Of a DNA stretch of 17,229 nucleotides, positions 4,148 to 11,877 are shown piece by piece. Source of the stretch: Dehalococcoidia bacterium (GTDB lineage Bacteria; Chloroflexota; Dehalococcoidia; UBA3495). A program made the position numbers and the translations under genes. The stretch covers positions 1 to 17,229 of the forward strand of contig JAPKDE010000032.1 of the NCBI GenBank assembly GCA_028822675.1, given 5' to 3'. Each line of letters begins with the position of its first letter. The stretch's first letter is position 1. A model generated the notes under the pieces. The model did no database searches. It saw only the letters and a program-made list of their open reading frames with translations, and was not told the origin of the DNA.

Positions 4148-4850
4148 GATTTCGGATTCCGTTATTAGTAAGATTGGGTTACTGTGCTGCTACTGTTGGG
4201 CTGGCACGGGTAACTCGGCAGGCGTAACGCACAAAGCCGACAGTATGCTACATCCTACCTAGTCTCAAGTAAAGGCTTGCTCTGTGACTGGGGCAACGTG
4301 AATTCAAGGAATCGCCTAATCTTCGCCGCCTATTTACTGACCTGCCCCATCTCAGCTTGGTTTTGGGGCCAAGATTAGCCAGATTTTACCAACCACTCCG
4401 AGAATATATTCAAGCGAATATCAAGCGAGTTTTCCGAGCAAGTTTTAGAGGCGAATTCAAGCCAAGGTTCCCATCAAATTGGAGCTAAGAACGCCGATAT
4501 ATACCGGCCATCCGCCCTTGGGTTTAACGCACCAATTCAATTAGAGGAAACACGTAATCAGCCACACGCTGGACCAGTTAGCCCTCCCCAGGAGGAAACC
4601 TTCGGATTGCCTTTGCAGCCGGTAACTGGTATCCTTTTAAGGTGATTTGTGCTTCTAAAGAGGCATATTCCACTATAGAGAACCCCCCGTAAAGAACGCA
4701 GTGAAGATTCCGGATACAGGCTCCCAATTACGGTCTCCGGATACCTCCTCTAAGCACTCCGGCCAGTCCCTACCTTGTTAGTGGTAGTCTGGCGCACGTT
4801 TACGATAGCTGAACACGGACCGAAGACTTACTGAAGGTGGAGGTACTTGA
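4148..4850. other. 703-bp non-coding region between divergent genes
   Basis: I see no ORF with coding character and no RNA gene. On the minus side a weak promoter candidate for the PEPCK-like gene is TTGAGA (4268..4263) with CATACT (4247..4242), spaced 15 bp. Other small features are the direct repeat TCAAGCGA at 4410-4417 and 4421-4428, and CCGGATAC repeated at about 4709 and 4736. The plus-strand GTG at 4851 has a good Shine-Dalgarno sequence. The region is long for this tightly packed window and may hold promoters and long 5' leaders for both genes. Confidence 0.5.
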
Positions 4851-5672
4851 GTGACGACTGAGCAAAGCCCTTTAATTTCGGAAGCTCTGAAGCATTTTGT
4901 GGCAGCCAAGAAGTCCGCAAAAACAGTCCAGCAAAGTCACCAGGAACTAGGCCGTTTTGTGGCCTGGTGTGGCAGGGAACGTAGAGTTTCCGAATTGGCG
5001 CCCTCAGAAATTGCTGAGTACGCTCAGCAGATTGGTCTTGGCGGAGCAGAGTCCGTCACTCGATTAGGCCCCGTTAAGATTTTCCTCGCTTATTGGAAAG
5101 ACCAGGGATGGATTGAAAACGGTCTGGCATCCCACCTCAGAGTCCCCCGCACCCGCCGCACTGCCGCAAAGTCCAATGTCCGGACCAATGGCCGCAGCGG
5201 CACCTCCGGCTCCCAACTCAGCCAAGAAGGCTACGACCGCTTGGTTGGTCAACTTGATGACCTGAAAGACCAACGGGCTCTCGTGCTCGAAGATATCAAA
5301 CGGGCCATGGCAGATAAAGACTTCCGTGAAAACGCCCCTTTGGATGCAGCCAAAGACCAGCAGGGAATCGTTGAACTCCGCATTCGCGAACTTGAAGCCA
5401 GCATCAACAACGCTCAGATACTTCCTGAGGGCGTGTCCTCCAAGGTAGCCCGCTCCGCAGTTGGTGCCAAGGTCACCCTGAAAGATACCAACTCCGGAAA
5501 GACCTTGGCATACACACTGGTAGATGTCCGTGAAGCAGACGTATCTGAAGGTAAGATTTCGACTACCTCACCAGTCGGTCAGGCCCTTTTGGACCGGACA
5601 GTAGGTGAAGAAGTCACAATCAACGTCCCCAAAGGAACTCTCCGGTACTTGGTGCAACGCATCACTGGCTAG
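4851..5672 (+). CDS. Fusion of a recombinase-type SAM-like domain with a GreA-type transcription factor
   Basis: A 273-residue protein with two recognisable parts. Residues about 6-100 match the N-terminal core-binding (SAM-like) domain of tyrosine recombinases such as XerC/D: a long helix with the pattern SAKTVQQSHQELGRFVAWC, then the LAPSEIAEYAQ block and RLGPVKIFLAYWKDQGWIE. No recombinase catalytic domain follows. Residues about 121-273 form a full GreA: LSQEGYDRLVGQLDDLK opens the coiled coil, the tip reads DKDFRENAPLDAAKDQQ with the expected acidic pair D157 and E160, and the C-terminal FKBP-like domain ends with SPVGQALLDRTVGEEV and LRYLVQRI. GreA rescues backtracked RNA polymerase by stimulating transcript cleavage. 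The linker (101-120) is basic and Gly/Ser-rich. The start is GTG with AGGTGGAGG upstream. Two terminators follow. The domain calls are strong; how the extra domain alters function is unknown. Confidence 0.88.
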   Translation: MTTEQSPLISEALKHFVAAKKSAKTVQQSHQELGRFVAWCGRERRVSELAPSEIAEYAQQIGLGGAESVTRLGPVKIFLAYWKDQGWIENGLASHLRVPRTRRTAAKSNVRTNGRSGTSGSQLSQEGYDRLVGQLDDLKDQRALVLEDIKRAMADKDFRENAPLDAAKDQQGIVELRIRELEASINNAQILPEGVSSKVARSAVGAKVTLKDTNSGKTLAYTLVDVREADVSEGKISTTSPVGQALLDRTVGEEVTINVPKGTLRYLVQRITG

Positions 5673-5695
5673 TTAGATTCTCAACATGGAACATC

Positions 5696-5734
5696 AAAAG
5701 GTCGCCCCATTAAACCGGGGCGGCCTTTTATTTT
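5696..5734 (+). terminator. Intrinsic terminator of the GreA-fusion gene
   Basis: GGTCGCCCC (5700-5708) pairs with GGGGCGGCC (5717-5725, one G-U pair) around an 8-nt loop, with flanking A/T pairs and a TTTTATTTT tract. It lies about 25 bp after the stop codon. Confidence 0.9.
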
Positions 5735-5813
5735 GCCAAAATATGAGTTGAGCTATGACCGGAAAATGACTAGACATAAAACCGTGGTTAAACCGTGCTT
5801 AAAAATGACAAAC

Positions 5814-5848
5814 AAAAGGCGTCCCATTAACCGAGACGCCTTTTTATT
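5814..5848. terminator. Second, bidirectional terminator between the convergent genes
   Basis: GGCGTC (5818-5823) pairs with GACGCC (5835-5840), flanked by AAAA and TTTTTATTT on the plus strand and TTTTGTTTG on the minus strand. It can therefore stop both the GreA-fusion transcript and the peroxiredoxin transcript ending at 5880. Its loop (CCATTAACCG) closely resembles that of the terminator 110 bp upstream. Confidence 0.75.
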
Positions 5849-5879
5849 TGCCTGTGAGTCCGGTGTGGCTAGGTTTGAG

Positions 5880-6341
5880 CTAGTCTAGCTCTTCAACCAC
5901 GCCGAAGATGTCTACGGGGTTGGGCAGAGTGCCCGGTTCGTATTCCTCACGGAAACGAATCACGCCACCTTTGTCGATGATAATCACGGCCCGTTTGCTG
6001 GCACCGCGCTCTTCGTTGAAAAGGTCGTAAGCCTTGCTGGCTTCACCCTTGGGATGGAAGTCGGACAACTCCGGGTAGGGTAGTCCGCCCAATGCCGTGC
6101 TCCACGCCTTGTGGGAAGGAACTGTATCGCAGCTTATGCCCAGAACCTGAGCATTGTTATCCTCGAACCGTTTGTACTCCTGACGGAACGAAGTTGCTTG
6201 TGTCGTTCAACCAGCGGTGAAATCGAACACGTGGAATGAAAGGACAACTGTCTTCTCGCCCTTGTAGTCGCTTAGGGAAACATCCCCATCGGCGGAAGGC
6301 AGTTTAAAATCGGGGGCTACATCGCCAACTTGAGCCGGCAT
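5880..6341 (-). CDS. AhpE-like peroxiredoxin, probable selenoprotein (in-frame TGA at the peroxidatic position)
   Basis: A thioredoxin-fold peroxiredoxin that reduces peroxides through a reactive Cys or Sec. Read through a TGA at 6209..6207, the frame is uninterrupted for 153 codons, the usual AhpE length. Residues 1-44 hold VGDVAPDFKLPSADG and VLSFHVFDFTAG. Codon 45 is TGA, where the family has the peroxidatic Cys (the FTxxC motif). Then come TTQATSFRQEY, VLGISCDTVPSHKAW with Cys71 as a possible resolving cysteine, and KRAVIIIDKGGVIRF carrying the conserved active-site Arg. Both halves are well conserved and in the same frame, and a stem-loop of bacterial SECIS type follows the TGA. I therefore read TGA as selenocysteine. 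I chose the ATG at 6341 because AAGGTGGGAAT precedes it and the protein begins at the normal place; an ATG at 6413 would add 24 non-family residues. The alternative is a pseudogene with a Cys-to-stop change. No sel genes lie in the window. Confidence 0.85.
6161..6193 (-). promoter_or_regulatory. Candidate bacterial SECIS element
   Basis: Thirteen nucleotides after the TGA, the mRNA can fold as CUUCG-UU-CCGU, an 11-nt loop CAGGAGUACAA, then ACGG-UU-CGAGG. This gives nine base pairs (one G-U) around a symmetric U-U/U-U internal loop. The GG in the apical loop lies about 26 nt from the UGA, within the spacing known for bacterial SECIS elements read by SelB. The loop's G residues are at its third and fourth positions, slightly later than the usual first two. 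Confidence 0.6.
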
Positions 6342-6401
6342 ATTCCCACCTTTTAAATTGTAGATTTGGGCACCGCAGAAATACGAAGCCCATGGGCGCA
6401 G

Positions 6402-6407
6402 ATTATA
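6402..6407 (-). promoter_or_regulatory. Probable -10 element of the peroxiredoxin gene
   Basis: A perfect TATAAT (6407..6402 on the minus strand) lies 60 bp upstream of the chosen ATG. No convincing -35 hexamer is seen at 16-18 bp, so activator help or a weak promoter is possible. A start of transcription here would exclude the upstream ATG at 6413, supporting the shorter protein. Confidence 0.45.
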
Positions 6408-6463
6408 CCTCACAATTTAATGGGGGACACTCATTTGGCAGATTAAATCCGTTCTGAACGCCG

Positions 6464-6472
6464 TGATATACT
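6464..6472 (+). promoter_or_regulatory. Probable extended -10 promoter of the exonuclease gene
   Basis: TGATATACT contains the extended -10 TGn followed by TATACT, about 67 bp before the GTG start. No good -35 is visible, which is usual for extended -10 promoters. Confidence 0.4.
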
Positions 6473-6538
6473 TGGCCGCGTTGTCGATAGGGACATTTAC
6501 TGGGGTTTTCGGGTCATCTTTTTTGTGGGGGATGTGTA

Positions 6539-7528
6539 GTGCAGGCGGAGTTCAAAAGCGGCGTTTACCTGCCAGAGTTAGACCTCTGGATGGATTCAAC
6601 CAGAAAGCGTGAGTTCAGTCTGATTTCCCACGCCCACTCAGATCATACAGCCCGCCACATCAGGCCGGTTCTCACCCCCAATACGGCCAAACTCCTGGGT
6701 GATTACCTCAAAAAGTCAGACCCCATCCTGCTCCCCTACCATGAGCCCTATGAGACCCCGGCCTATACCATGACGCTGCACCCGGCTGGCCATTGCCTTG
6801 GCTCAGCCCAAGCGTTGATTGAATCAAAGCAAACCGGCGAAAGACTGCTCTACACCGGGGATATCAAAAGTCGCAAAAGCCCCACCAATGAACCCTTGGA
6901 GCCGGTGGCCTGCGACACCCTGGTCTTAGAGTCCACCTACGGCCGACCCGAATACGTGTTTCCCCCGGAAGAACAGGTGTTGGAGACGGCATTTAAAACC
7001 CTGAGAATGTGGCTGTCTCGTGGTCTACGTCCGGTAATTCAAGGTTGGCGGTTGGGCAAGTCACAGGAGTTATTGCACCACATGTTGGGCCAGGGTTTTG
7101 ATGTCATGGTGGAGGAGAGCATCTACCTGGGCACTCAGATTTACCTGGAGGCCGGGGTGGAGTTTCCCGGTCAGGTGAAGATGTTTGAGGGCGATTGGCC
7201 GGAGGGCTGGATACTAATGTTCCCGCCCGGAAAACGCCGTGAGGCCCTAAAGCACTTCAGAGGCAAACGCACTCTGGAGATGACTGGCTGGGCGACATCT
7301 GGCAGCATGCCTTGGGGGCGAGGGGCTGATGCCAGCCTGCCCTACAGCGACCACCCCGACTTCAACGAGTTGGTGGAGTACGTCCAGGCAGTTTCGCCCA
7401 AGCAGGTCTACACCGTGAACGGGTTTCCCGAGTTGGCCGTCAGGCTGCGGGAGTTGGGCTACCCAGCCGTCCATCTATATGCCAAAGGCCAACCGCAGGA
7501 CGAGGGCTTTCAGATGAAGCTGGTTTAG
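6539..7528 (+). CDS. Metallo-beta-lactamase-fold exonuclease (RNA-processing/ligase-associated type)
   Basis: A 329-residue metallo-beta-lactamase-fold nuclease resembling the bacterial 'mRNA 3'-end processing factor' or ligase-associated DNA exonuclease group, which acts on nucleic acid 3' ends with two metal ions. Visible metal-site motifs are HAHSDH at residues 31-36, HPAGH at 81-85, the Asp of YTGDI (D108), LESTYG at 129-134, and YSDHPDFNELV with H272. The length fits that group, and the C-terminal part ends in a QVYTVNGF strand typical of it. The start is GTG with a purine-rich GTGGGGGAT upstream; no better in-frame start is seen. No DNA ligase or helicase gene, the usual partners of ligase-associated members, lies in the window. 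It is divergent from the peroxiredoxin and convergent with the broken transporter. Fold and nuclease class are firm; DNA versus RNA substrate is open. Confidence 0.85.
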   Translation: MQAEFKSGVYLPELDLWMDSTRKREFSLISHAHSDHTARHIRPVLTPNTAKLLGDYLKKSDPILLPYHEPYETPAYTMTLHPAGHCLGSAQALIESKQTGERLLYTGDIKSRKSPTNEPLEPVACDTLVLESTYGRPEYVFPPEEQVLETAFKTLRMWLSRGLRPVIQGWRLGKSQELLHHMLGQGFDVMVEESIYLGTQIYLEAGVEFPGQVKMFEGDWPEGWILMFPPGKRREALKHFRGKRTLEMTGWATSGSMPWGRGADASLPYSDHPDFNELVEYVQAVSPKQVYTVNGFPELAVRLRELGYPAVHLYAKGQPQDEGFQMKLV

Positions 7529-7563: not shown

Positions 7564-8872
7564 CTATAAAATATATGCTGCCAACAGCATCGCCACAGCA
7601 CCAATGGGTAGAATCCACCCCACATAGATGATCCATTGGTTGGGCAACCTGGAATTCATCGCCGCCAGCAGGTCGGCCTTTGGTAGCAGCCACGCAATTA
7701 GGGCAGCGCCCAGAATCCCCGCAACAATCACCACGCCAGACCCTGCCATTTCATCCATGAAGTCCAGGAATGGTTTGCCGTTCAGTTCCAGCCCCACTGA
7801 GGTAAAGCTCAGCGCAGACGGTATTCCCAGCGCCGTGTCCACCACCACTCCAATCAAATCAGCAGCCCACCGCGGAACGTGGAAATCGTCTCGAATTGGG
7901 GCCAGGACCACTGCCAATCCGCCGGTGCAGGACGTGAACGCAGCCAAGAACAAGAGGGTAAAGAAAACTATGCTGAGAGCTCTTCCGGCAGCTAGTTCAC
8001 CGAAGACCGCTGGGAAGGCAGTGAATGAGAGCTGGCTGCCCGTTTCTGGGACAATGCCAAAGGTGAAAACAATGGGGAACACCATGAGGCCGGCCAGGAC
8101 GGAAACAAAGGAGTTGGTGGCCACGATGGCCACGGATGAAGCAACGATGTTGACCACCCTGGGCGTGTAACTGCCGTAGGTGATCAACAACGCCAGGCCG
8201 ATGCTGAGGGAGTAGAACGCTTGCCCCGCCGCCATCCGCCAAGTTTGAAGATCCAAGAATTTGTCCAGATCAAAATTGAATTAGAAGTCGTTTGCTGGGC
8301 CTGATCCATCAAGGGTCTGCGCATAAACAGCCAAACTGGCGATGCCCAGAACCAATAGCGGCAGCATGACTCGGCTGATCTTCTCTATGTAGCCAATGCC
8401 GTTCCACATCACCGCTAGGACCAAAGCTGATACAACGAAGAAGTACCACAACGAAGAATACCCGGACGTAAATTCGTCAAAGGTTCCAAGGGTGCCTCGC
8501 ACGGCGTCTACGGTGTAGCCAAGGGTCCAGCCGGTCACCACGAAGTAGTAGCTCATGATTGAGATTGTCAGCGCCACAACTAACCAACCGACCCACGGCC
8601 CCCAGCGTTTGTTGACGTAGCGGAAGGTGCCCACCGGGCCGCGACTGGTCAGATTTCCAGCGCTTGATTCCAGAATTCATTATTGGAAACCCAATGGCCA
8701 GGATACAGATGGCGTAGGCGACAATGAATGTGCCCCCGCCGTTCTGCTCCACCATGTAGGGGAAACGCCAGATATTTCCCAGATCAACAACACCGGCTAT
8801 CGATGCGATGATAAAAATTCCCTGGGATGACCAAACGGGGCGGGTTCGAGTTCCATCTACAACCCGCGTCAT
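7564..8872 (-). pseudogene. Broken sodium:neurotransmitter-type symporter (NSS/SLC6 family)
   Basis: About 436 codons encode a membrane Na+-coupled amino acid or amine importer, but the frame is interrupted twice. The N-terminal segment has the family hallmark GVVDLGNIWRFPYMVEQNGGG in TM1. Near 8674-8677 (the AATT after IGFPIM) the frame changes by one base. The next frame reads LESSAGNLTSRGPVG, the family's TM2-loop motif, and continues to ANDF. An in-frame TAA follows at 8283..8281. The same frame then resumes with FNFDLDKFLDLQTWRMAAG and runs through several hydrophobic segments, including LFLAAFTSCTGG and IPSALSF, to a stop at 7564. Counted together, the parts give an almost full-length NSS protein. 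Either the gene has recently decayed or the assembly contains two local errors; two separate lesions favour decay. The start has a poor ribosome-binding site. Confidence 0.8.
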
Positions 8873-10613: not shown

Positions 10614-10641
10614 ATTCAGGAAATCGAATCAAGGTATGAAT

Positions 10642-11877
10642 ATGCCAGAAAATCTCTCAACGAATTTACTGGACATTGATCTCAACGGCCCAGAGGCGGT
10701 CTCAGACCCTTACCCGATCCACGATCAATCCAGAAGCCAAGACCCTGTGCACCTAAGCCCCCACAATGGTGTCTGGTTCATCAGCCGCTACGATGATTTG
10801 ATCTCGTTGGTCCGAGATGAACGGATGTCCTCCGATCGGTTTCGGGCGATGACTGCAAACCTATCAGAAGAGGATAAAGAACGGCTCGCCCCCCTGATCG
10901 GTGCCGTCTCGGCTTGGATGCTAATGTCGGACCCGCCTTCTCATACCAGAATGCGTACGCTGGTTAGCAAAGCATTTACTCCCCGCATGATTGAGACGAT
11001 GCGGTCCCGGATTGAAAAACTTGTGGACGAGATGCTGGATCAAGTTTCTGAAAACGGAAGAATGGACGTGATTGCCGACCTGGCGGCCCCTCTGCCAAGT
11101 ATCGTGATCTCTGATTTGCTGGGCGTGCCAGGGAAAGACCATGTCCAATTCAAGAAATGGTCGGATGATATAGCGGCAGGAACCGCGGGGACCGCTACCG
11201 TGGGAACCCAATCGGAGCGGTATTTGCTCGCCCAGAATAGTTTCATTGAGCTCTCCGATTATTTTCGGGAAAAGGTTGATGAGCTATGGAGTCACCCTCA
11301 AGACAACCTACTAAACGCTATGGTGGAAGCGGAAGAGGCAGGGGATAGGCTCACCCAGGAAGAGTTGTTCGCCAACTGCGTCCTCCTGATGTTCGCTGGT
11401 AACGAGACCACCACCAACCTGATAGGGAACGGGACTTTGGCCCTGATGCAAAATCCAGAGCAGATAAAATTACTACAGCGAGATGGTGAATTGATTGGAA
11501 CGGCGGTGTAAGAATTGCTGCGTTACGACAGTCCTGTGCAGAAGCTGACCCGCCAGGCCATCACCGATATCGAGATTGGCGGCAAGATAATTAAAAAGGG
11601 AGGCTTAGTGAGCCTTGGCTATGGCGCTGCCAACCGGGACTCAGAGCAATTTTCAAATCCCAATCAACTGGATATCACACGGGCAGACAATCGTCACGTT
11701 GCATTTGCCCAGGGGATCCATTATTGCCTGGGCGCAGCTTCGGCGCGCCTAGAGGGCCAGATTGCCATCGGTACATTGGTCAACCGTATGCCCGATATTA
11801 AGCTGTCATCGGAGGACCTGGAATATAACCCCAGCACCGTGTTACGGGGACTGAAGACCCTGCCGGTCTCATTCTAA
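10642..11877 (+). pseudogene. Cytochrome P450 with one in-frame nonsense codon
   Basis: A class I bacterial P450 of about 411 codons, a haem monooxygenase that would need a ferredoxin partner not found here. The I-helix oxygen-binding motif AGNETTTN is present. An in-frame TAA at 11509-11511 is followed directly by ELLRYDSPVQ, which holds the ExxR motif. The haem loop FAQGIHYCLGAASARLE carries the Cys ligand. Relatives commonly read AVEELLRYDSP here, so the TAA replaces one Glu codon and a single GAA-to-TAA change explains the break. Everything else is intact and in frame. I prefer the ATG at 10642 because AAGG lies seven bases before it; an ATG at 10636 is too close to that site. Without read-through the product would lack the haem ligand and be inactive. 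A sequencing error is the alternative. Confidence 0.85.

Follow-up and report, generated by a model that had tools for sequence, protein, structure and literature searches.

A predicted AhpE-like selenoperoxiredoxin of Chloroflexota with two conserved hairpins downstream of its in-frame UGA

Introduction

Peroxiredoxins (Prx) that carry selenocysteine (Sec) after a Thr-x-x motif (TxxU) are presented as an established selenoprotein family in the accessible portions of published surveys (PMC1088965, PMC2398784, PMC13188914, PMC9312934). The available sections of the Sargasso Sea and GOS selenoproteome reports count 43 and 253 Prx genes, respectively, and define the family by TxxU alone (PMC1088965, PMC2398784). 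In the bSECIS model, as outlined in the accessible text of a 2026 review, the recoding signal is a short coding-sequence stem-loop after the UGA with its loop 16 to 37 nt away, and SECIS-based searches for selenoprotein genes assume this distance (PMC13188914). The same text states that a subset of genes departs from the model (PMC13188914), and exceptions are therefore foreseen in general. Here, we analyzed a 17,229-nucleotide stretch of Dehalococcoidia DNA (the window) that contains an AhpE-like peroxiredoxin gene with TGA at its catalytic codon, together with relatives of this gene and their genomes.

Results

The peroxiredoxin gene and its product

Direct translation of the minus strand from 6341 to 5880 yields 153 residues with a single internal TGA at codon 45 (6207 to 6209) and a final TAG. 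The original prediction of two peroxiredoxin halves sharing one frame and split by this TGA was borne out: joined, with the TGA taken as a residue, they score 125.8 bits against Pfam AhpC-TSA (PF00578). The TGA occupies the peroxidatic position (FTAG-TGA-TTQ), and a T-x-x-U motif (T42-A-G-U45) is present within the AhpC/TSA domain. The top relative among solved structures is M. tuberculosis Rv2238c/MT2298 (5c04; E 7.6e-28), which we take to be AhpE, and codon 45 aligns with the Cys of its FTxxC motif. On the basis of translation, Pfam, the structure match, and relatives, we annotate 5880 to 6341 (minus strand) as an AhpE-like selenoperoxiredoxin gene with UGA probably read as Sec.

The ribosome-binding site expected for this gene is, on direct reading, probably the purine-rich AAGGTGGG upstream of the ATG (6345 to 6352, minus strand); many relatives (not counted) have comparable purine-rich runs before their ATG. 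A terminator-like inverted repeat lies ∼35 bases beyond the stop codon (5814 to 5844, minus strand) and is a weak candidate, with two such repeats found versus 1.3 expected in the scanned stretch. The gene is isolated: its neighbors on both sides lie on the opposite strand, one encoding a GreA/GreB-like factor and the other a product that weakly matches a metallo-hydrolase domain. The GreA/GreB protein (4851 to 5672, plus strand) is extended at its N terminus by about 120 residues, which return no Pfam match and presumably resemble a recombinase core-binding domain. Elsewhere in the window, a sodium:neurotransmitter symporter gene (7564 to 8872, minus strand) appears split over more than one frame, with a PF00209 match in 7564 to 8256, the part run against Pfam, and the other pieces judged by eye, and a cytochrome P450 frame (10636 to 11877, plus strand) is interrupted by an in-frame TAA (11509 to 11511), both parts matching PF00067 in the same frame.

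TGA at the catalytic codon across relatives

Scanning GTDB with one genome per species provided 47 close loci, which together with the window make a set of 48 genes. The original prediction pointed to the catalytic column and to scattered further stops as the features to inspect in homologues. The column is TGA in 47/47 loci and in the window, and no other stop interrupts the matched part of any of these genes. Among distant matches, 3/19 have one further TAG or TAA, and those matches reach query residue 155 to 157, beyond the usual gene end. Record titles assign 44 of the 47 loci to Chloroflexi/Chloroflexota, Dehalococcoidia, or SAR202; the remaining ones are L038 (Entotheonella), L034 (titled Proteobacteria), and L043 (titled Armatimonadetes). 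The phylum search for L034 returns the same five genomes as that for L038. Of the 144 genes that make up a wider set, 97 carry TGA at this position and 47 carry TGC/TGT, duplicates having been left out of the counts (L072 and L142, equal to L016; L143 and L144, equal to L077 and L078; L219 and L220, equal to L034 and L038). Forty regions, 28 without a stop and 12 with TGA, were hand-picked from a listing and are thus nonrandom.

Database proteins bear the marks of this codon. Among the 120 homologues listed out of 547, 23 span the motif, with W in 13, C in 9, and L in 1 (P0010). P0002 is locus L004 translated with TGA as Trp (99.4% identity), and W at the catalytic column is consistent with translation by a TGA=Trp code. 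Most of the other listed homologues begin after the TGA, as expected of broken gene calls and as anticipated for callers that split the gene in two. The homologous proteins P0003, P0012, P0013, and P0016 are Cys forms with the residues A-Q-V-L-G. Such forms were sought in 400 genomes of the phylum, which gave 19 matches, 3 of them without a stop and none of these 3 with the motif, and in viral contigs, where nothing was found; a Clostridia record contained one Cys peroxiredoxin and no AhpC-TSA match containing a stop. Divergent TGA peroxiredoxin subfamilies (FTNT-U, FSPG-U, WTPV-U, and FTGV-U) occur in the Chloroflexota sample and in the Entotheonella phylum (L130 to L141, L145 to L160, and L224 to L227), with two divergent TGA peroxiredoxins each in genomes G034, G038, and G688.

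Two further positions were compared. The Pro of the PxxxTxxC/U motif (residue 38), a conserved active-site residue of peroxiredoxins, is replaced in all 48 close genes, by Val in 47, including the window (Val38), and by Ile in 1. In the wider set, it is replaced in 79/97 Sec versus 6/47 Cys genes and kept in 18/97 and 41/47, respectively, kinship being ignored in this comparison. Cys71, regarded in the original prediction as normal, is indeed common in the close set (45/48 genes) but not invariant, as only 55/97 Sec genes of the wider set have Cys there, which rules it out as an obligatory resolving residue. The simplest reading of the Cys71 counts would be a one-selenocysteine mechanism.

Selenocysteine machinery in relatives' genomes

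Matches to tRNA-Sec above 60 bits were found in 37/47 relatives' genomes and were lacking in 10. The threshold was set at 60 bits because weaker matches also occur in the 14 well-known control genomes (14/14 at E 0.001). Over the cut-offs, the controls gave tRNA-Sec in five and SelB, SelA, and SelD in two each. ARAGORN identified tRNA-SeC with anticodon TCA in 10/10 tRNA genes fetched. SelB was over the cut-off in 41/47 relatives' genomes and not in the other 6, SelA reached at least 150 bits in 40/47, and SelD was over the cut-off in 45/47; in 44 of these 45, SelD contains a single in-frame TGA. The SelD match of the Entotheonella genome G038, which also holds L038, has no in-frame TGA, unlike these 44. 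A SelW-like match with TGA was present in 30/30 genomes searched.

All four factors (tRNA-Sec, SelA, SelB, and SelD) were found in 5/5 chromosome-level genomes (G016, G029, G030, G031, and G038) and also in G001, the nearest relative, which shares 91.8% DNA identity with the window over 4595 to 7528. G043 lacks SelA, SelB over the cut-off, and tRNA-Sec above 60 bits, and its locus lies on a 3.2-kb contig that is possibly misbinned. Missing factors in other genomes may reflect draft assembly. With each of the four factors in most relatives' genomes and TGA in 48/48 genes, the call of a probable selenoprotein is supported.

Two hairpins downstream of the UGA

Hairpin 1 spans nt 16 to 48 after the UGA (6161 to 6193, minus strand) and consists of 5 bp, a 2×2 internal loop, 4 to 5 bp, and a 9- to 11-nt loop. 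Its stems lie at columns 17 to 21/45 to 49 and 24 to 28/38 to 42 of the 54 bases from the TGA, and 82.3% of the cells are paired. Covariation is 0.258 versus 0.143 ± 0.012 in shuffles, none of 500 being as high, and is lost on sliding the partner. Synonymous shuffles of 14 codons from +3 gave a z of −2.34, with 96% of the 48 genes below −1, whereas z ranged from −0.61 to +0.36 in 10 upstream scan windows and in 25 scan windows from +21 on. A second signal in the same scan, with z of about −1.3 to −1.4 at +12 to +18, corresponds to hairpin 2. Hairpin 1 is positioned as bacterial SECIS elements normally are, with its loop falling within the range of 16 to 37 nt after the UGA. No base exceeds about 0.5 at loop nt 28 to 33 in the 76 two-hairpin genes. 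Single-sequence folds gave the 16-to-48 span in only 11 of these 76 genes and other spans in 65 (mean length, 37.7; SD, 4.3). RNAalifold returned no consensus structure for the 54-column alignment, a 71-nt piece of the window was no more stable when folded than its shuffled versions (z −0.83), and Rfam gave nothing above threshold in the window.

Hairpin 2 spans nt 55 to 73 (6136 to 6154, minus strand) and has an 8-bp stem closed by a GUU triloop (6146 to 6144), its general form being AUGCCCAG-GUN-CUGGGCAU. Aligning 49 genes (48 distinct) shows pairing in 98.7% of hairpin 2 cells and three both-side changes. The stem is kept in distant genes despite residue and codon changes, as ACCCAA/UUGGGU in L075 and L076 and as GCUCA/UGAGC in L077, L078, and L080. 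In 43/48 close genes, the GUN triloop at nt 63 to 65 is closed by exactly 8 bp, whereas none of the 47 Cys genes has more than 3 bp. Pairing reaches 89% of cells in the Sec sequences (95 distinct) versus 83% in shuffles (0/200 as high) and 57% in the 47 Cys sequences versus 55% in shuffles (9/200 as high). Covariation in the Cys set likewise scores above its shuffles (0.207 versus 0.163), and this score by itself is therefore not specific. Within the 144-gene set, hairpin 2 is present in 76/97 Sec versus 1/47 Cys genes (Fisher P = 4.5e-20, kinship ignored); L220 (equal to L038) and L221, in which hairpin 2 is shorter and one outer pair is broken, were scored as lacking it.

Codon choice agrees with these patterns. 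Third bases in the stem are biased relative to codons for the same amino acids in the rest of the genes (Ala C/T, 92% versus 61%; Gln CAG, 98% versus 76%; Leu NTG, 86% versus 55%; Gly C/T, 88% versus 67%), whereas the third base in the loop is free (Val GTG, 33% versus 38%). In the two-hairpin genes, G63 and U64 reach 0.99 and 1.00, and Val occupies residue 66 in 75/76. Another Sec peroxiredoxin subfamily from the Entotheonella phylum (L224 to L227) has both hairpins. A quick tree, which lacks one row (L046, judging by length) and leaves many forks unresolved, needs six Sec/Cys changes, and the Sec branches that carry hairpin 2 fall in several separate places; a kinship-free pairs test of hairpin 2 against Sec, with only two supported pairs, was not significant. 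Collectively, the sequence data support selection on both hairpins and a link of hairpin 2 with Sec.

Comparison with SelD and SelW-like genes

Among the SelD genes of the same genomes, 29/38 have a stem of exactly 8 bp under a G-started triloop at nt 30 to 32, and the loop begins with G in 38/38. Hairpin 2 thus looks like the single SECIS hairpin of SelD shifted by 33 nt, which is the length of hairpin 1 in the window. The unpaired bases between UGA and stem number 19 in SelD and, once hairpin 1 is folded, 13 + 6 = 19 in the window. All 38 SelD rows were oriented for the 8-bp count, while 4 of them (L173, L176, L185, and L189) were on the wrong strand in the UGA-to-stem and codon-shuffle runs. 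In the latter (L161 to L198, with the same four mis-stranded rows), scan windows starting at nt 111 to 147 after the UGA gave z of about −0.6 to −1.2, a possible sign of further RNA structure at nt 110 to 160 of SelD. The loop of SelW-like genes falls within nt 18 to 30 in 17 of the 19 read (20 fetched). Hairpin 2 is missing from 21 Sec peroxiredoxin genes; in 13 of these, a single hairpin with a G-started loop lies at 16 to 37 nt, and the loop reads CGUGC in five of the 13. These data suggest two forms of one signal, either a single hairpin at the normal distance or a displaced recognition hairpin plus a spacer hairpin.

The reading that we favor, if tentatively, is that SelB binds hairpin 2, while hairpin 1 acts as a spacer whose folding would take up 33 nt and bring hairpin 2 to its usual effective distance from the UGA. 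The stem length and loop that hairpin 2 shares with the SelD hairpin, the 19 unpaired bases in both genes, the near-invariant G63, U64, and Val66 compared with the variable loop of hairpin 1, and the single G-loop hairpin of the 13 genes that lack hairpin 2 all argue for it. Of the bSECIS criteria, hairpin 2 has the loop (3 to 9 nt, G in the first two positions) but not the distance: its loop lies ∼60 nt from the UGA, against 16 to 37 nt in most known bacterial SECIS elements according to the accessible text of the review (PMC13188914). Further points against it are that the 19-nt equality rests on the consensus fold, which single-sequence folding reproduces in 11/76 genes, and that a loose bSECIS form (at least 5 bp, −3 kcal/mol, loop at 16 to 37 nt) is found in 35/76 two-hairpin genes and in 8/47 Cys genes. 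We put forward, at somewhat short of an even chance, a new SECIS architecture in selenoperoxiredoxins of Chloroflexota and the Entotheonella phylum, with the SelB recognition hairpin ∼60 nt past the UGA and a hairpin of ∼33 nt in between.

A serious competitor, which we place next in order, is that hairpin 1 is itself an ordinary SECIS and hairpin 2 an auxiliary element that might, e.g., pause the ribosome, shield hairpin 1 from misfolding, or protect messages stopped at the UGA. The standard distance of hairpin 1, its covariation, and the strongest synonymous-shuffle signal over its 14 codons speak for this reading. It leaves unexplained both why hairpin 2 and the SelD hairpin are alike in stem length and loop and why the loop of hairpin 1 has no conserved G.

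Hairpin 2 could also reflect a palindromic regulator-binding site in the DNA or simply follow from preferred A-Q-V-L-G codons, the codons under the palindrome being common in GC-rich genomes. This is improbable: the five outer pairs form in 71/82 Sec genes versus 12.8 expected from the genes' own codon usage, whereas Cys genes with a comparable motif form them in 1/11 versus 1.0 expected. The 24 G-U cells at three stem positions of the alignment are as expected for RNA, and in genomes with both forms of the enzyme the hairpin is limited to the Sec copy (G016, in L016 and not L119; G105, in L077 and not L121; G319, in L140 and not L104).

Discussion

We conclude with high confidence that the window encodes an AhpE-type Sec peroxiredoxin whose UGA at codon 45 is recoded under a coding-sequence signal comprising two RNA-selected hairpins after the UGA. 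In the mechanism that we propose, SelB carrying Sec-tRNA-Sec would read codon 45 as Sec, as the machinery seen in relatives suggests, and the resulting selenolate would, by homology, attack peroxides in place of the peroxidatic Cys. The recoding signal would be the coding sequence 3′ of the UGA, with hairpin 1 at nt 16 to 48 and hairpin 2 at nt 55 to 73. Codon choice, covariation, and the comparison with Cys genes support selection on both hairpins at the RNA level, and one or the other would be the hairpin bound by SelB.

A changed code, in which TGA would specify Trp or another standard amino acid, could account for the W found at the column in some databases, but it is very improbable and was rejected, given the tRNA-Sec with anticodon TCA and the SelA, SelB, and SelD found in relatives' genomes, as well as Cys at this column in other relatives. 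A pseudogene or sequencing error, to which the stop in the P450 gene elsewhere in the window lends some color, was likewise rejected and is the least credible of all, with the same-codon TGA in 47 other assemblies, no other stop, and reading frames conserved on both sides.

The protein broadens a known selenoprotein family to many genomes of Chloroflexota, in which gene callers split the gene or read Trp. The RNA part matters more than the protein part. If hairpin 2 is the recognition element, the 16- to 37-nt rule really concerns folded distance, genes with a displaced signal may be overlooked or assigned the wrong hairpin, and the locus would offer a simple way to test how SelB gauges distance to the ribosome.

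Comparison with known systems

The open-licence PMC literature, as far as its accessible text goes, yielded no description of a two-hairpin SECIS form, and no title or abstract on selenoproteins of Chloroflexi, SAR202, or Chloroflexota was found to describe this gene. TxxU peroxiredoxins are already established, and the window protein is therefore a new lineage of TxxU selenoperoxiredoxin; the expectation of a credible new selenoprotein member stands as to lineage, but not as to kind. By description, which is the level of the comparison and is limited to the available parts of those reports, the TxxU Prx of the Sargasso Sea and GOS marine samples likewise have Sec after Thr-x-x and belong to the same Pfam family (PMC1088965, PMC2398784). 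The full PxxxTxxU motif, as given in the accessible text of the review (PMC13188914), is absent here, with Val38 at the Pro position and Pro in 0/48 close genes.

M. tuberculosis Rv2238c (1xvw, 4x0x, and 5c04) is the best solved relative over residues 4 to 139; it has Cys where the window protein has Sec and no Cys at the place of Cys71. AhpE is reduced by mycoredoxin and has one catalytic residue. PrxU (NF040737), whose name presumably marks a selenoprotein, is also a thioredoxin-dependent peroxiredoxin, but the window protein scores 68.9 bits against a cut-off of 270 and is not a member. Against Prx-SUH (NF045827), a thiol peroxidase selenoprotein, it scores 29.9 bits with a cut-off of 298, and the Prx-SUH motif is given as CxxU in the accessible text of the review (PMC13188914), compared with TxxU in the window protein. 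Finally, hairpin 2 shares a G-U-N type of loop with the bSECIS model as outlined in that text (PMC13188914), but its loop lies 60 nt from the UGA with another hairpin between; hairpin 2 is a more unusual feature than the protein.
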